Positions 16,060 to 36,293 of a stretch of 36,293 bases of DNA are shown one piece after another; the stretch's first letter is position 1, and the number at the start of each line of letters is the position of its first letter. Origin of the DNA: Candidatus Jacksonbacteria bacterium RIFCSPLOWO2_02_FULL_44_20. GTDB taxonomy: Bacteria > Patescibacteriota > Patescibacteriia > UBA9629. Below the pieces are notes generated by a model. The model did no database searches, was not told the origin of the DNA, and saw only the letters and a program-made list of their open reading frames with translations. A program made the position numbers and the translations under genes. The stretch spans positions 1 to 36,293 of the forward strand of contig MHJU01000003.1 in NCBI GenBank assembly GCA_001818155.1, written 5' to 3'.

Positions 16060-16134
16060 GCGGGTGTCGTATAACGGTTATTATACTACCTTGCCAAGGT
16101 AGTGACGGCGGTTCGATTCCGCTCACCCGCTCCA
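16060..16134 (+). tRNA. tRNA-Gly (anticodon GCC)
   Basis: A full cloverleaf is visible. The acceptor GCGGGTG (16060-16066) pairs with CACCCGC (16124-16130). The anticodon stem CTACC/GGTAG holds loop TTGCCAA with anticodon GCC, and the T-loop is TTCGATT. The discriminator T and an encoded CCA complete the 3' end. It decodes GGC and GGU. Confidence 0.95.
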
Positions 16135-16160
16135 GAATTTTTTTAACTCATCTCAAATTA

Positions 16161-16188
16161 AAATTCCCTCATAAATGGGGGAATTTTT
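16161..16188 (+). terminator. Rho-independent terminator after tRNA-Gly
   Basis: A 10-base-pair stem with one G-T wobble (16161-16170 with 16177-16186) and a six-base loop ends in a run of five T (16184-16188). The A-rich 5' side may also let it serve minus-strand transcripts from the downstream gene. The stretch from here to 16321 holds no recognisable gene. Confidence 0.6.
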
Positions 16189-16321
16189 GATGTTGCAAAC
16201 TATTCGCGTATACAATTCTACTCCAATCTGCTTGCAACTCTTTCGGTGGTTGGCAGAAATCCGAGCGGCTCCGCCGCGAACATTAAGAATTTCAAGTTTT
16301 TCTTTGGCGGAAAATTCAGAA

Positions 16322-24068: not shown

Positions 24069-24611
24069 ATGCAGAGTAATACTGAAAGAGCCAATGATTT
24101 GCCAAGCATACACAAGTGCCGCGATCTTTGGGACAAATACAAAATGCCAGAGAATATCCGCGCTCATACGCTTTCAGTTGCGCGCTTTGCGGACGCGGTT
24201 GCGGCACATCTTGTAGCGCAGGGGATTGCGGTTGATAAGGAATTAGTAAACCGCGGCGCGCTTTTGCATGACATTGCGAAATTGCGCGGCATTCAAGGAG
24301 GAAAAGACGTGCATCACACAGACGAAGGCGCGGCGATTCTTGGGGAAGAGGGATGGGGTGGTAGGCTTGCGAATGTGGTGCGTTATCATGGGACTGAAGA
24401 TTTTTCGTTTGCTCTCCCGATTGAAGACCAGATTGTAAATTATGCTGATCGGCGCGTGGTGCACGACAGAATAGTTTCTCTAGAGGAGCGATTGGCAGAT
24501 TTGTCAAAGCGCTATCCGGGCGCGCTGAAAATTATAGATGAGAAAAGGCCGTTATATGTGGAGTTTGAGGAGCGGTATCATTTACAACAACTAATTTTTG
24601 ACGATGAATAA
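24069..24611 (+). CDS. HD-domain phosphohydrolase inside the suf cluster
   Basis: The 180-residue protein has the HD superfamily ligands: RAHTLSVA (first His, about residue 32), LLHDIAK (HD pair, about 66-67), VHHTDEGA and VRYHGTE (later His residues), and an Asp in NYADRRV. Such domains hydrolyse nucleotides or other phosphomonoesters using divalent metal. The substrate is unknown; relatives include YqeK-like and HDIG proteins. The gene sits 2 bases after sufC and overlaps sufB by 8 bases, so it is firmly in the operon. An HD gene is not a standard Suf component. Confidence 0.85.
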   Translation: MQSNTERANDLPSIHKCRDLWDKYKMPENIRAHTLSVARFADAVAAHLVAQGIAVDKELVNRGALLHDIAKLRGIQGGKDVHHTDEGAAILGEEGWGGRLANVVRYHGTEDFSFALPIEDQIVNYADRRVVHDRIVSLEERLADLSKRYPGALKIIDEKRPLYVEFEERYHLQQLIFDDE

Positions 24612-27126
24612 ACAAAAAATCGCGTCAACAACTTATAAATGGGGATTTCACGATAAAGAAGCCCCGGTTTACAAATCCCCAAAAGGGCTTTCGCAAAAAG
24701 TTGTTGAAAGCATATCGCACTACAAAAGCGAGCCCGCGTGGATGCGGGATTTTCGTTTGCGCGCGTTAAAAATTTTTTTTGCAAAGCCTCTGCCGTCATG
24801 GGGCGCTGATTTAAGCGCGATTGACTTTAATAATATCTATTACTACATTAAGCCAACCGAGGCCACTATGCACTCGTGGAATGAAGTTCCAGACAGAATC
24901 AAAGCCACTTTTGACAAGCTCGGCATCCCTGCGGCTGAACAAAAGTATTTAGCAGGAGTGGGCACGCAGTATGATTCCGAGAATGTGTATCATAATTTGC
25001 GCGAGTCGCTCGCGAAACAAGGAGTGATTTTTAGCGATGTAGAAACCGCTCTAAAAGAGCATCCGGAATTAGTGCGCAAGTATTTTGCAACTGTTATCCC
25101 GCCCGGCGACAACAAATTCGCGGCGTTAAATTCCGCCGTGTGGTCGGGCGGTTCATTTATTTATGTGCCGCCCGGGGTTCATGTTGAACAACCTTTGCAG
25201 ACATATTTTCGCATCAACGCAAAAAATATGGGGCAGTTTGAGAGGACGCTTATTATTGTGGATGAAGGCGCTTTTGTTCATTATATTGAAGGTTGCAGCG
25301 CGCCGATTTACGCGACATCATCTTTGCATACAGCGGTTGTTGAAATTATCGCGCTTCGCGGTTCGCGCGTCCGGTATACCACGGTGCAGAACTGGTCAAA
25401 CGACGTGTATAATTTAGTAACCAAACGCGCGTTTGCCCACGAGGACGCGGTAGTTGAATGGGTGGATTTTAATATGGGGTGTCTTGCCGGGAGTAGCAAA
25501 ATTTATGTTTATGGAAAAGGCGTGGTTGATATGAAAGATGTGAAAATAGGTGATGAAGTTTATTCTGTTAACACTGATACACTTATACCTATGAAGAAGA
25601 AAGTTGCCGGTGTTCAAGATAACGGCACGAGAGAGACATATCGCCTGGTAACTATAGATCATCGAGAGATTGTTGCAACTGACAACCATCCATTTTTAAC
25701 ATTGGAGAGCGGAGGTGTTGGAAGAAGTAACCGCTATCTAAAGTGGCGACCATTGAAGGATTTACAGGAGGGAGATTATATTGCAGTCGCTGATAGTTTA
25801 CCGGACGACGGATCGCCATATCGGATTCAGTTTCAATACAAACCACTAAAGCAAGCCAAATATCACATTCAAATTCCCACGGAAACTAATAAAGAGCTTA
25901 TGTGGATTCTCGGCGCATACTTAGGTGATGGGTATTTTGAGTACGATAAAGTGAAAAGCATTCCACGTCGGCTTCGAAGAGTATATTTTGCGGTTCCTCC
26001 ACACGATAATGCGCGTCAAAAGTTAGAGATATACTTACAAAAAGTGTTCGGTATAGATTTCTGGCGTAATAAGGGGATTTGTCTAACTATCGGATCTAGT
26101 ATATTAGCCCAATTTATCCACGATTTGGGGTTTGGAGGCGGTGCCCGTACTAAGCGGGTTCCACAGTGGGTATACACTCTCCCTCATAAGCAACAGTTAG
26201 CATTTATAGAAGGATACTTAGATACAGATGGCAGTGAACGGCATAAAATGGTTAAAGATGGAATTCAATATGGGCAATTGACATTTACCAGTTGCAATAA
26301 AGAGCTTCTTCAAGATATGAAGTATGTGATGATATCGTGCGGTTTGAAGCCGTTAAAGATCAGCACGTATATTGCGAGTAGAAAGTTAACAGAAGGGAAA
26401 GAGGTAAAAGAGTATATAACTCATTTTTTGACACTCAATATCAGAGAGGATCTAGAGATAATAAGAAACAAATGCTCAAAGCGAGAGAACCAAATAGAAT
26501 TTGTTAAGATTAGAGAAGTTGTGCCTGATAAAAAGCAAAAGGTATATGATTTGGAGGTAGAAGGAACTCATAATTTTATAGCAAACGGAATTGTAGTTCA
26601 TAACAGCAAGATTACAATGAAATACCCGGCTGTGTATATGGTCGGGCGCGGGGCGCGTGCGGATATTCTTTCTATGGCATACGCAGGCGCGGGACAGCAT
26701 TTAGACGCCGGCGGAAAAGCAGTGCACTTGGCAAGCGATACTTCATCGCGCGTGATTTCAAAGTCCGTCTCCCACGGCGGCGGGCGCACTTCTTACCGCG
26801 GGCTTTTGAGGGTTGGCAAAGGCGCGCGCGGCGTTAAATCAAAAGTGCAGTGTGATGCCTTAATTTTAGACCAGGCTTCGCGCTCGGACACCTATCCGGT
26901 GATGAAAATAGAAGAAGATGACGCGACCATTGAGCACGAAGCAACGGTTTCAAAAATCGGCGAGGAGCAGTTGTTTTACTTAATGTCCCGAGGGCTTACT
27001 GCCGACGAAGCCGCGCTTATGATCGTAAACGGCTTTATAGAACCCCTCGTTAAGGAGTTGCCATTAGAGTACGCGGTTGAAATGAACCGTATGATAGCCC
27101 TTGAGATGGAGGGGAGCGTGGGGTAA
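24604..27126 (+). CDS. sufB: Fe-S scaffold protein SufB interrupted by an intein
   Basis: The 840-residue precursor has an N-extein of 292 residues, an intein of 375 (25480-26604) and a C-extein of 173. Splicing gives a 465-residue SufB, the normal length. The N-extein carries the SufB hallmarks YVPPGVHVEQPLQTYFRIN, FVHYIEGCSAP and QNWSNDVYNL. The C-extein holds SKITMKYP, SVSHGGGRTSYRG, CDALILD, TIEHEATVSKI, LMSRGL and EAALMIVNGF. SufB is the scaffold subunit of the SufBCD complex. ATG 24604 is chosen; the frame also has a TTG at 24598. Overlap with the HD gene is 8 bases. The extein junctions GCACAG-free sequence keeps the reading frame throughout, so only protein splicing is needed. Confidence 0.95.
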   Translation: MNKQKIASTTYKWGFHDKEAPVYKSPKGLSQKVVESISHYKSEPAWMRDFRLRALKIFFAKPLPSWGADLSAIDFNNIYYYIKPTEATMHSWNEVPDRIKATFDKLGIPAAEQKYLAGVGTQYDSENVYHNLRESLAKQGVIFSDVETALKEHPELVRKYFATVIPPGDNKFAALNSAVWSGGSFIYVPPGVHVEQPLQTYFRINAKNMGQFERTLIIVDEGAFVHYIEGCSAPIYATSSLHTAVVEIIALRGSRVRYTTVQNWSNDVYNLVTKRAFAHEDAVVEWVDFNMGCLAGSSKIYVYGKGVVDMKDVKIGDEVYSVNTDTLIPMKKKVAGVQDNGTRETYRLVTIDHREIVATDNHPFLTLESGGVGRSNRYLKWRPLKDLQEGDYIAVADSLPDDGSPYRIQFQYKPLKQAKYHIQIPTETNKELMWILGAYLGDGYFEYDKVKSIPRRLRRVYFAVPPHDNARQKLEIYLQKVFGIDFWRNKGICLTIGSSILAQFIHDLGFGGGARTKRVPQWVYTLPHKQQLAFIEGYLDTDGSERHKMVKDGIQYGQLTFTSCNKELLQDMKYVMISCGLKPLKISTYIASRKLTEGKEVKEYITHFLTLNIREDLEIIRNKCSKRENQIEFVKIREVVPDKKQKVYDLEVEGTHNFIANGIVVHNSKITMKYPAVYMVGRGARADILSMAYAGAGQHLDAGGKAVHLASDTSSRVISKSVSHGGGRTSYRGLLRVGKGARGVKSKVQCDALILDQASRSDTYPVMKIEEDDATIEHEATVSKIGEEQLFYLMSRGLTADEAALMIVNGFIEPLVKELPLEYAVEMNRMIALEMEGSVG
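25480..26604 (+). other. LAGLIDADG intein in SufB
   Basis: The 375-residue intein begins at Cys1 (CLAGSSKIYV) and ends IVVHN, with penultimate His374 and terminal Asn375, followed by extein Ser. Block B is VATDNHPF (T67, H70). The homing endonuclease has two LAGLIDADG helices, ILGAYLGDG (143-151) and FIEGYLDTDG (242-251), both with the acidic catalytic residue. Block F is VYDLEVEGTHNF. All splicing residues are present, so it should be active. It lies between Gly and Ser in the conserved SufB stretch DFNMG-SKITMKYP. Its base composition is poorer in the GCG/CGC codons that dominate the exteins, suggesting lateral arrival. Confidence 0.95.
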
Positions 27127-27133
27127 AAAAAAG

Positions 27134-27217
27134 AAAAAACACCTCTTACATACGCGCGGTTGAAAATTTATTTGATGATTTCAACGGCGCGCAGGCGTGA
27201 TGCAAGAGATGTTTTTT
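27134..27217. terminator. Large nested hairpin after sufB, terminator-like on both strands
   Basis: A 14-pair stem with one mismatch (27134-27147 with 27204-27217) has A-runs on the left and T-runs on the right. Inside it is a second hairpin: GTTGAAA (27159-27165) with TTTCAAC (27179-27185), extended by GCGCG/CGCGC (27154-27158 with 27188-27192). T tracts follow on both strands (27212-27218 plus; complement of 27125-27139 minus). It could partly terminate sufB transcripts before sufD. Confidence 0.6.
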
Positions 27218-27223
27218 TACATG

Positions 27224-27244
27224 TTCTCACCTCCTTTGTGAGAA
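27224..27244. promoter_or_regulatory. Perfect 7-bp hairpin displaying an anti-Shine-Dalgarno sequence
   Basis: TTCTCAC (27224-27230) and GTGAGAA (27238-27244) enclose the loop CTCCTTT. TCACCTCCTTT (27227-27237) equals the 3' end of bacterial 16S rRNA; on the minus strand it reads AAAGGAGGTGA, 7 bases before an ATG at 27222-27220 that is followed directly by a TAA. Downstream, a weaker stem (CCTTC.GCT/AGC.GAAGG, 27253-27261 with 27280-27288) is also possible. The rest of 27245-27363 holds no recognisable gene. Confidence 0.45.
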
Positions 27245-27363
27245 AAAGTGCGCCTTCCGCTTTTTTGGAAATTTCCTCCAGCCGAAGGAAAACCTTTCAA
27301 GCAGAAAGCGCGTTTAGTGGTTTAAAACCAAAAGTAGTTTATCACTTCTTCTTCTTGTCAAGT

Positions 27364-28035
27364 ATGCTATCCAAAAAATTCCACAAAAATAATAATTCAA
27401 TCATCATTCCAGCAAACGAAACCCGCGAGGTCGTGGACATTATTACAGATGATTCAGGTAAGCACACTCCCATTCTTGCTATACGCGCGGAAAAAGGTGC
27501 GCGGGTAACATACATTTTTGCTGTGTTTGGCGATGGGGAGATTACAAAAGAGGTAATACTTGAGCTTGAAGAAGGCGCGGAAGGGAGAATTGTCGGCGTG
27601 GTTGTTGGGAGCGGCAAAGCGCATTTCACGCTTAAAACAACACTACTCCACAGCGCGCCCCACACAAAAGGCGACATCAAAATTAAAATGGTCTTGAAAG
27701 ATACGGCTTATGTGTCGTATGACGGGCTTATTAAAATTGACAAATCCGCGCAACAGACAAACTCGTACCTTGACGCGCGCGTCCTTATTTTAGATCGCGG
27801 AGCTAAATGCGACGGCAAGCCGGAATTAGAAATTGAGGCAGACGACGTAAAGGCGTCGCACGCGTTTAGTTCAGGTAAGATTGACAGCGAACAGCTTTTT
27901 TACCTTTGTTCGCGAGGGCTTACAGAAGCAGAGGCAAAACAAATGATTGTGAAAGGGTTTTTGATGGAGGCGGCAGAAGGGTTGTCGCATGAAGCGCAGG
28001 AGTGCATAAAACGAGAAATTGTTATTGCTCTATGA
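27364..28035 (+). CDS. sufD: Short SufD-like Fe-S assembly protein
   Basis: The 223-residue protein has the SufB/SufD right-handed beta-helix core (NETREVVDI, GARVTYIFAVFGDG, EEGAEGRIVGVVVGSGKAHFTL) and the typical C-terminal block ASHAFSSGKIDSEQLFYLCSRGLTEAEAKQMIVKGFLMEA. Usual SufD proteins are about 400 residues with an alpha-helical N-terminal domain, which is absent here. A longer in-frame reading from 27160 is rejected because it runs through a structured intergenic region and is not SufD-like. The stop overlaps the sufS start (ATGA). Confidence 0.88.
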   Translation: MLSKKFHKNNNSIIIPANETREVVDIITDDSGKHTPILAIRAEKGARVTYIFAVFGDGEITKEVILELEEGAEGRIVGVVVGSGKAHFTLKTTLLHSAPHTKGDIKIKMVLKDTAYVSYDGLIKIDKSAQQTNSYLDARVLILDRGAKCDGKPELEIEADDVKASHAFSSGKIDSEQLFYLCSRGLTEAEAKQMIVKGFLMEAAEGLSHEAQECIKREIVIAL

Positions 28036-29698: not shown

Positions 29699-29947
29699 AT
29701 GAAAGTAGTAACAACAACAAAAGCGCGGGCTCAATTATCCAGTCTTATCAACGAAGTACGGTATGGCAATACTCAAATCGGCATTGGAAGAAGAAATAAA
29801 ATTGAAGCGGTAATTATTAAATATCCGGACAGTATAAACGATCGCGCGAACGAACTCACCGCGCTTAATGAGTATGGCGGTTCCTTTGACTTTTTAAATG
29901 ATGAGCCGGACATATATTCAGAAGATGACATCAAAAAAGATACTTAA
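29699..29947 (+). CDS. Phd/YefM-type antitoxin
   Basis: The 82-residue protein MKVVTTTKARAQLSSLINEVRYGNTQIGIGRRNKIEAVII has the Phd/YefM N-terminal DNA-binding fold (LSSLINEV...GRR.K..AV.I). The acidic C-terminal tail (DFLNDEPDIYSEDDIKKD) is probably the disordered toxin-binding part. ATG 29699 gives the standard family N-terminus; an upstream ATG at 29690 would sit at the predicted transcription start. The gene overlaps the toxin gene by 23 bases. Confidence 0.8.
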   Translation: MKVVTTTKARAQLSSLINEVRYGNTQIGIGRRNKIEAVIIKYPDSINDRANELTALNEYGGSFDFLNDEPDIYSEDDIKKDT

Positions 29948-30275
29948 ACGTAGCGCCATAGTATTAGTGCCGTTTCCGTTTACCGACTTAACGGCTATAA
30001 AACTGCGCCCGGTATTGGTCATATCCTTCTATAGGCAGGATATAATTGTTGTTGCCATTTCTTCAGTAGTCGTCAATTACGACAAAAAGACCGATATTAT
30101 TATACAAAGCGGGAATGCAGGTTTTAGCCGCACCGGCTTGAAGCAATCTTCCGTTATTAAATGCGCGAAGATAGCAACTTTAGATACTGGGATTGTGATC
30201 GGCGCGCTTGGCGCAGTGCCATTAGATATTCAGGAGCAAGTTGACCAAAAATTACGCGCGGTTTTAGAGGTGTAG
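29925..30275 (+). CDS. MazF/PemK-family endoribonuclease toxin
   Basis: The 116-residue protein has the PemK/MazF SH3-like barrel signature SAIVLVPFPFTDLTAIKLRPVLVIS near the N-terminus, then VVAISSVVVNYDKKTDIII and LKQSSVIKCAKIATLD with the conserved S.I.....T.D pattern. MazF toxins cut mRNA at short sequences. It overlaps the Phd-like gene, so toxin and antitoxin are coupled. Pairing a Phd-type antitoxin with a MazF-type toxin is a mixed combination. The pair interrupts the Suf cluster between sufS and sufU. Confidence 0.82.
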   Translation: MTSKKILKRSAIVLVPFPFTDLTAIKLRPVLVISFYRQDIIVVAISSVVVNYDKKTDIIIQSGNAGFSRTGLKQSSVIKCAKIATLDTGIVIGALGAVPLDIQEQVDQKLRAVLEV

Positions 30276-34398: not shown

Positions 34399-36293
34399 AT
34401 GACACACAATATATCACCGCAACTGACGCGATTACTCGGATTCCTTACGCTCTTTTTTGTTTCAGCGCTTGTCGGAGTTGCAAGCGGAATAGGCGTTACG
34501 CATGTCGTCAAGCGTTTCGCGCTCGTCGCTCCTCAAAATGCAGAAACGATTGCGCAGGCGAGCGAGGGGAAAGTGCTCGGAGAGACAGATTTCAAAATTG
34601 CCCAAACCACGTCTTTTTTTGACTGCGCTAAATCCCCCTACAATACTTCCCCCGCCTGCCTTGGCGAGCATCCGCGGATCCATATCACGCAAGACACACT
34701 GCCGTATTTTCGCAACAAGATCGCTACGTATTACAAAAGCGAGTACCAGCAATTCGTCAATTGGGTAGATACGAATTTTACTGTGGAAGATGACCCCGAT
34801 ACGTCAGGATTGATGGCAGACTACCATGCGCTGATTTATCTCCTAGGACCGATTAATGGTATTACATACGGTCACAGTATGACCGAATATCGTGATCGCG
34901 CAATCGGTAATATGTTGTGGGCGGTGGCAAACTGGACAGATATAGGAAAAGCACGCGCTTATCGTTACAATGGTTACGCTATTGTCGCTCGGGCGTACGA
35001 TTGGGTATGGGCTGATATTGTACCGGCCGATAGAACAAAGATTGTGAACTGGTTGGCAGAAATAGGAACATCTGCACTGAATAGTATGAAGTCAGATCCG
35101 CCATGGCTATTTAGTTCATCTTACTTTGAAGGTTTCCATCCCTGGTATTGGGGCCTTGCATTTTATGGAGACGGAATTCGCGACGCAGATGCTCAAACGC
35201 TCGTAAATGGCTTTGATACTTTGATGTTAAACGGCAAATGGCTTGACGCGCAAAATTGGGTTGCCAGAAATAATGGCGGAGTAAGTGAATATGGCAACTA
35301 TATTCTTGGGCATCCGGTGAGTCATATTATCAACATTGATGGATGGCGGACGGCAACCGGTGAGGACTACTTTGCTCAAGGAACCAGCGTAGCAAATTCT
35401 GATTTCATGAAAAATCATCCCAAGCTTGTGCTCTACACCATAAAACCGTTTGGGAAGACCAATTCCCAGGCAGCGGGAGGGGCTGACTGGAAAATGATTA
35501 AAGTCGGTCAAGCCGGTGCAGGAACGGGAATCGGTGGTCCCCAGGTTATAGTCTCGTTAGGGGAGACCTTGAAAGTGATAGATCCCGATATGGCGGCACT
35601 GAACCGTTGGATTATAGATAACCGTGTTGGCGAGAGGTTGGATCAGTGGAACTCAGAGTGGCATCATATTCTCTACTTCCTGTTTGGCGACCGATCCGTT
35701 GCCCCCAGGTCGCCCGCGGATCTAGGACTGTCTACGGATCAATTTTTTGAAGGGTTAGGCATGGCTGTGATGCGCACTGGATTTGATAGTTTGAATGACA
35801 CGACCATAGCTGTCCTTGCGCCGCCATACTTTTTGCAAGGACATAGTTGGGACCAATGGACAGCTATTCCCACAGGCTTTACGGTTGATAAATATGGGCC
35901 CCTGGCAATTAAACAGTTAGGCTACATCCGCGGCAACATCGGCTATTCATTTCGCAACAATTTTATACGTTTCACCGATCCCTTAAAGACCCCCAGTGCC
36001 GGCTTTCCCATGGTGGGTATGCCCCAAGTTCCCAAAGATGTTCGGCAGTACACCCCTGGAAGTCCATGGGACCTTGGCGGGATGAAACGACGAATTTTTG
36101 ATTCCAATTATGACTATTTGTATATGGATTACACGAAATATTACGATTCCGCTCGGGTGTCGCTTTACACGAGACAATTCGCCTATTTCAAGCCAGATTC
36201 CAACCAGGAAAGTGATTACATCGTCATCCTTGATCGCACCCAAACCACCCGCCCTGACATTATCAAGCGCTGGGCGCTTAATATGGCGTACAA
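34399..36293 (+). CDS. Heparinase II/III-like polysaccharide lyase, secreted or surface-anchored (3' end outside window)
   Basis: The frame is open from ATG 34399 to the window edge (631 residues). An N-terminal hydrophobic segment (LLGFLTLFFVSALVGVASGIGV, about 12-33) is a signal or anchor. The mature part opens with LGEHPRIHITQDTLPYFRNKI, typical of the (alpha/alpha)6 toroid of heparinase II/III and alginate lyases. Toroid-like helices (YNGYAIVARAYDWVW, WYWGLAFYGDGIRDAD) follow. Next comes a region with GLGMAVMRTGFDSLNDTTIAVLAPPYFLQGHSWDQW, like the C-terminal beta-sandwich segment (G...R.GWD...GHS..D). The substrate is a presumed acidic polysaccharide. The missing C-terminus could carry a dockerin or other surface module. 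Confidence 0.65.
   Translation, partial: MTHNISPQLTRLLGFLTLFFVSALVGVASGIGVTHVVKRFALVAPQNAETIAQASEGKVLGETDFKIAQTTSFFDCAKSPYNTSPACLGEHPRIHITQDTLPYFRNKIATYYKSEYQQFVNWVDTNFTVEDDPDTSGLMADYHALIYLLGPINGITYGHSMTEYRDRAIGNMLWAVANWTDIGKARAYRYNGYAIVARAYDWVWADIVPADRTKIVNWLAEIGTSALNSMKSDPPWLFSSSYFEGFHPWYWGLAFYGDGIRDADAQTLVNGFDTLMLNGKWLDAQNWVARNNGGVSEYGNYILGHPVSHIINIDGWRTATGEDYFAQGTSVANSDFMKNHPKLVLYTIKPFGKTNSQAAGGADWKMIKVGQAGAGTGIGGPQVIVSLGETLKVIDPDMAALNRWIIDNRVGERLDQWNSEWHHILYFLFGDRSVAPRSPADLGLSTDQFFEGLGMAVMRTGFDSLNDTTIAVLAPPYFLQGHSWDQWTAIPTGFTVDKYGPLAIKQLGYIRGNIGYSFRNNFIRFTDPLKTPSAGFPMVGMPQVPKDVRQYTPGSPWDLGGMKRRIFDSNYDYLYMDYTKYYDSARVSLYTRQFAYFKPDSNQESDYIVILDRTQTTRPDIIKRWALNMAY

Follow-up and report, generated by a model that had tools for sequence, protein, structure and literature searches.

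Why should an otherwise compact suf operon contain a structured gap of 237 bases? The window, the whole stretch of DNA analysed here, comprises 36,293 nt of contig MHJU01000003.1 (GCA_001818155.1) from Candidatus Jacksonbacteria bacterium RIFCSPLOWO2_02_FULL_44_20, a genome labelled G000 below. In the list of open reading frames (ORFs) the suf genes around the gap are nearly contiguous, so the description of the operon as tightly packed in the initial annotation is sound. The gap extends from the sufB stop codon (27124–27126) to the sufD ATG (27364). By Pfam, the operon comprises an ABC ATPase at the sufC position, an HD-domain protein, SufB with an intein, SufD and a class-V aminotransferase at the sufS position. 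The intein-interrupted sufB gene (24604–27126, plus strand) matches SUFBD_core at 1.4e-76 and Intein_splicing at 9.3e-21; its start at 24604 is putative, the ORF list opening at TTG 24598. A LAGLIDADG-like region is present in the intein. The sufD gene (27364–28035, plus strand) encodes 223 residues from ATG 27364 and matches SUFBD_core; SufD proteins from Patescibacteria, WWE3 and Peregrinibacteria loci are 191–275 residues long. No Shine-Dalgarno sequence precedes the sufD ATG. The gene for the HD-domain protein (24069–24611) separates the sufC-like ATPase gene from sufB, and a gene for a PemK/MazF-like toxin (29898–30275) is found by Pfam slightly 3' of the suf genes.

Three hairpins had been described in the gap, and structure prediction places them at 27134–27217, 27224–27244 and 27250–27311. 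The first had been called terminator-like on both strands, and it is indeed followed by a T-run at 27212–27218 on the plus strand and by T6CT8 at 27139–27125 on the minus strand. It is absent from the list of a consensus terminator scanner, which has a loop limit of 8. The earlier statement that no known riboswitch is present agrees with an Rfam search, in which only three tRNAs, elsewhere in the window, reached the gathering score; below that score the gap gave four chance-like matches, the best (E 0.02) to a miRNA family.

The two strands of the gap differ in predicted stability. The plus strand folds at -62.6 kcal/mol (z -2.5), which 4 of 200 dinucleotide shuffles equalled, and the minus strand at -88.8 kcal/mol (z -8.2), equalled by none of 200. 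Eight of the 73 pairs in the minus-strand structure are G-U pairs that turn into non-pairs on the plus strand. Each large hairpin is about 10 kcal/mol better on the minus strand, and the small hairpin at 27224–27244 is about equal on both (-7.7 and -7.4 kcal/mol). In a coarse scan of the window, 656 stretches of 220 nt over the two strands were each compared with 25 shuffles; only one had a z value below that of the minus-strand stretch at 27061 (-4.9). The lowest (about -6) belongs to 16061–16280 on the minus strand, a structured intergenic stretch adjoining a plus-strand tRNA (16060–16131).

This strand bias bears on the regulatory proposal of the initial annotation, according to which the hairpin after sufB could end a share of the sufC-sufB transcripts and so lower sufD-sufS expression. 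The part that stands is that the plus-strand hairpin (-28.6 kcal/mol), followed by U7 (27212–27218) in a tightly packed operon, could partly terminate transcription. However, the minus-strand fold is clearly better, the promoter-like and Shine-Dalgarno features described below face the minus strand, sibling units occur elsewhere in the genome, and the structure is absent from the other genomes of the order. Since the structure is better on the minus strand and the gap reads there as a unit with siblings, a sense-strand attenuator setting the ratio of sufB to sufD is not the best reading, and we regard it as unlikely. The initial annotation probably judged the strand wrongly: it is the minus strand that carries the promoter-like site, the Shine-Dalgarno sequence, the better fold and the longer of the two T-tracts (T6CT8, as against T7).

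Read along the minus strand, the gap begins with a promoter-like site at 27336–27361, which consists of TTGACA (27361–27356), an AGA-repeat spacer ending in TGA, AGAAGAAGAAGTGA, and TAAACT (27341–27336). The TGA and TAAACT resemble an extended -10 site, and the spacing of 14 nt is short. The transcript is predicted to start near 27329, and a small hairpin, GGUUU-UAA-ACC (27318–27330), is predicted near its 5' end. Next comes a leader hairpin (27250–27311) with an uninterrupted 13-bp outer helix, followed by AC-UUUUU; it is predicted at -32.0 kcal/mol on the minus strand versus -21.1 on the plus strand and could be an attenuator. The small hairpin at 27224–27244 (UUCUCAC / AAAGGAG / GUGAGAA) contains an 11-nt Shine-Dalgarno sequence, AAAGGAGGTGA, at 27237–27227. 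An ATG directly followed by TAA (27217–27222) is seen in the sequence and in the ORF listing. The unit closes at 27125–27217 with the terminator-like hairpin (27217–27134) and its U-tract UUUUUUCUUUUUUUU (27139–27125); at -37.9 kcal/mol, this hairpin and U-tract form on prediction the intrinsic terminator by which an sRNA gene is recognized. Other minus-strand frames are at most 27 residues (from TTG) and 20 residues (from a GTG inside the Shine-Dalgarno sequence) long, and the ORF listing of the window copy holds no credible minus-strand ORF.

We give an even chance to the interpretation that a transcription unit of the minus strand was inserted between sufB and sufD and fills the gap, its product being a structured RNA of about 205 nt that is essentially non-coding. 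Starting from the TTGACA/AGA-repeat promoter, which lies just outside the sufD start, RNA polymerase would proceed leftwards. The transcript would pass the strong leader hairpin, the small hairpin with its perfect Shine-Dalgarno sequence and an AUG closed at once by UAA, and transcription would end at the long hairpin and U-tract adjoining the sufB stop codon. The sequence elements, the predicted folds, the promoter and Shine-Dalgarno string in common with other units and the absence from the genomes searched are observations; promoter activity, transcript ends, non-coding nature, insertion and an effect on suf are inferences. The antisense RNA is probably non-coding, because its start and stop codons adjoin; the window copy would be a non-coding derivative, or a unit that lost its small ORF. 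With a spacing of only 14 nt and a mediocre TAAACT, the promoter in the window may be weak or off. As the terminator is bidirectional and the promoter abuts a sufD start lacking a Shine-Dalgarno sequence, expression of sufD-sufS may depend on read-through. A polar effect lowering sufD-sufS expression is thus possible, and the idea of the initial annotation may partly survive as a consequence of the antisense unit.

Is the promoter-like site a chance occurrence? Its 14-mer, TTGACAAGAAGAAG, has five exact copies in the 1.07-Mb genome and no copies with one mismatch; the reversed-pattern control has none. Allowing two mismatches adds eight scattered matches, as compared with 30 for the reversed control at up to two mismatches; these eight looked ordinary by eye over about 190 nt and were rejected as family members. 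A 14-nt Shine-Dalgarno string, AAAGGAGGTGAGAA, occurs at four places genome-wide, every one 3' of one of the five promoter copies. Both results argue for the antisense unit. The exact TTGACAAGAAGAAG followed by AAAGGAGGTGAGAA and ATG, our definition of the unit family, is found at four of the five promoter copies, including that in the window.

Three siblings have this arrangement: C12:23630, between hsp20 and a Fic gene, with dnaK (named by eye) following; C12:27855, before dnaJ; and C26:3979, after a Y1 transposase gene. The remaining promoter copy, C14:28448, lies opposite an rmlD-like gene and is without hairpin or clear ORF, which counts against the antisense unit. In the siblings the 14-mer is followed by TATAGT, TATACT, TAAAAT or TATAGG. 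The distance from TTGACA to the -10-like site is 14 nt in the window and 17, 17–18, 23 and 29 nt in the other units, differences that come mostly from the number of AGA repeats. The two C12 siblings (G000:C12:20500-32500) are antisense among hsp20, the Fic gene, dnaK (by eye), a PIN-domain gene and dnaJ. A boundary sequence shared near a divergent gene was also considered and rejected: among the matches listed, only the promoter and Shine-Dalgarno region align beyond about 12 nt.

Where the window copy has ATG-TAA, the three siblings have ATG-AAA or ATG-AAG, which open frames for putative small proteins (50, 68 and 86 residues), none of which has a Pfam match. These frames raise the question of whether the window copy is a decayed gene, that is, the remains of a sibling unit, functionless in promoter, leader and terminator after its short ORF was lost or put out of frame. 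The ATG-TAA and the lack of a credible minus-strand ORF fit such decay. However, a neutral remnant is not expected to retain an uninterrupted 13-bp helix and a near-perfect terminator, and the terminator hairpin begins at the ATG-TAA itself, leaving no space for a gene. We consider decay somewhat unlikely.

The Shine-Dalgarno sequence sets the units apart from the long ORFs examined. Among 44 ORFs of at least 150 residues in 65 kb of G000, the first ATG being taken as the start, only one had a Shine-Dalgarno match of at least 6 nt, which is about the rate for shuffled upstream sequences; four units have 11 nt, and this supports the antisense unit. The one long ORF with a match over 5 nt is the PIN-domain gene near the C12 siblings. 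The usual pattern of the 16S rRNA 3' end had no match in the G000 assembly, perhaps through a missing rRNA contig or a changed end, so pairing with the Shine-Dalgarno sequence is assumed.

The small hairpin around this sequence was assessed with a covariance model built from four units, three from G000 and one from genome G091, the window copy being left out. The window copy scores 27.8 bits. In the class set of 239 genomes, the matches below E 1e-3 are the training sequences of the model, and the window copy (E 0.054) is not set apart from the weak matches given by 20 other genomes. We then applied one rule to all 26 matches against shuffles, superseding a test with six hand-picked non-unit matches. 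The helix is beyond shuffles in the three G000 units (0.0005–0.002); the values for the window copy (0.089) and G091 (0.106) are marginal, and the 21 non-unit matches span 0.06–1.0. The earlier test had given 0.079 for the window helix, and the wider one weakened its case. The marginal helix, inside the non-unit range, and the weak E-value speak against the antisense unit. It is thus the shared promoter and Shine-Dalgarno string, rather than the small hairpin, that place the window copy in the family.

Two further readings concern this hairpin. CsrA is a GGA-binding regulator, and GGA in a hairpin loop is its motif. The RNA might be a sponge for a GGA-binding regulator of this kind, as the loop AAAGGAG, closed by a 7-bp stem, displays GGA; only one such loop is seen, and we take a sponge to be extremely improbable. 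The other reading treats the family as a switch. A perfect, hairpin-framed Shine-Dalgarno sequence behind a promoter with a changeable spacer might give switchable expression, the start-stop of the suf copy linking translation-initiation capacity to expression of the iron–sulphur operon. With a ribosome initiating on the AUG-UAA, the 5' arm of the terminator would be covered in its lower part, and this would determine whether the antisense transcript ends where sufB ends or continues into that gene. We regard this scheme as speculative and its probability as very low.

Conservation of the stems in relatives was the test set by the initial annotation. We compared the four genomes of the order (G000–G003), a class set of 239 genomes and a phylum set of 379. 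Conservation of the stems between sufB and sufD does not hold: the gap is 36 bases in G002 and 40 in G003 (39 and 88 when aligned to the window SufD), and in the stretch read of G001 no sufD lies beside sufB. At 14 other loci with a short SufD, SufD-aligned gaps are at most 88 nt in 12, the exceptions being 168 (L065) and 631 nt (L078), as against 237 in the window. The shorter gaps in G002 and G003 and at these 12 loci favour an insertion. The SufD-aligned values replace an initial count of raw gaps, available for 70 of 83 loci (58 at up to 100 nt, four at 101–236 and eight at 237 or more), which are not comparable with 237 because the first-start rule puts the window gap at 33.

A leader model built from the single window sequence found no copy in G001–G003 and, in the 239 class genomes, apart from the window copy a single marginal match, in G137 (E 0.04). 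This match aside, the whole element was not found in the three other genomes of the order or in 235 further genomes of the class. That one copy of the whole RNA is known weighs against the antisense unit. The promoter 14-mer occurs in three of the 239 class genomes; beyond G000 its frequency does not exceed that of the reversed control (three hits versus four in 238 genomes), a further point against, and a longer promoter pattern occurs in two of the 379 phylum genomes (control, one). A DNA search of 57 genomes gave matches at E <=0.1 in 32, G000 included; among the matches listed, those outside the window were shorter than 40 nt and never covered the whole element. Phages gave no match to the element, and plasmids only two weak 32-nt matches, in Proteus. 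In viral contigs the Shine-Dalgarno-hairpin pattern had three hits, none with a TTGACA-AGA site by eye within 200 nt on either side, and the promoter plus -10 pattern had none. The hairpin-pattern search of the class misses the window copy because it required 2–16 bases between the arms and the window has one; the covariance model search covered that copy. The element is not reported in the literature searched, a limited selection.

Two occurrences in other genomes may be mentioned separately. In G091, a member of another family, the promoter recurs at locus L061 (G091:C2, about 34669-34749, minus strand), again with a spacer of 14 nt. Together with a Shine-Dalgarno hairpin resembling that of the units it stands before a small protein with two CxxC motifs, and is perhaps shared by transfer. 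In another class of the phylum, locus L188 (G463:C5:19721-19742, minus strand) carries the exact 22-mer promoter of the window copy, from TTGACA to TGATA, before an ORF of 203 residues; no Shine-Dalgarno hairpin was seen there.

Could the gap instead be partly coding? No stop codon interrupts the sufD frame in any of the 79 codons of the gap, a length reached by 30 of 5000 mononucleotide shuffles, and this counts against a non-coding unit. An upstream start at TTG 27160 or ATG 27175 is thereby formally possible, and the hairpins would then lie in an N-terminal extension of SufD. Against this, the stretch has a codon-usage score of 0.07; of 12 held-out true-frame stretches (0.05–0.38) 11 score higher, and 36 wrong-frame stretches span a range that includes this value (-0.44 to 0.19). 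Its translation is unlike other SufD N-termini in the loci compared (best E 0.69) and has no Pfam match below E 0.05. We judge a coding gap very unlikely and keep the sufD start at 27364, with the upstream start as an alternative. The plus-strand hairpins are stable, and stem-loops between cistrons might protect or process the suf mRNA, giving differential stability without any minus-strand transcript; the strand bias of the fold and the sibling units elsewhere in the genome speak against this and make it highly unlikely.

With the antisense unit as the preferred reading, a suspected sense-strand attenuator becomes a candidate antisense RNA gene. It would be one of a family of five promoter units in a minimal genome that, across the 65 kb examined, otherwise lacks a Shine-Dalgarno signal; four of the five have a full Shine-Dalgarno sequence. 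If transcribed, the family would show how a small number of strongly initiated RNAs and small genes are maintained in genomes as reduced as this one, and the AGA-repeat spacer suggests that some of the units could be switched.

Bacterial sRNA genes in general have their own promoter, stem-loops, an intrinsic terminator and an intergenic position. The window unit has a promoter-like site of its own, stem-loops, a terminator and an intergenic position as well, but differs from the general case by its full Shine-Dalgarno sequence and start-stop. An AUG directly followed by UAA is also found in the mRNA leader of Arabidopsis NIP5;1, where stalling depends on boron (PMC11915504). Unlike that plant mRNA leader, the RNA predicted here is bacterial, stands alone and has a Shine-Dalgarno sequence, its start-stop being read from sequence. 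Short tandem repeats at a promoter are known from Neisseria nadA, where operators flank the promoter repeat tract (PMC2791445), and from Mycoplasma gallisepticum vlhA, where GAA repeats are placed about 40 nt upstream of the start (PMC6258824). The repeat of our units is likewise short and tandem and, as in vlhA, GAA can be read in it; in contrast to both systems it lies between the -35- and -10-like sites, and the differences in length are those between units. In the isc-suf operon of Rhodobacter sphaeroides, antisense promoters are located within and just upstream of iscR and unexpectedly raised sense transcription (PMC6956336). The locus described here resembles that operon in having an opposite-strand promoter, here a predicted one, within an iron–sulphur assembly operon; it differs in that a complete short unit, from promoter to terminator, would lie between sufB and sufD, in an unrelated lineage.
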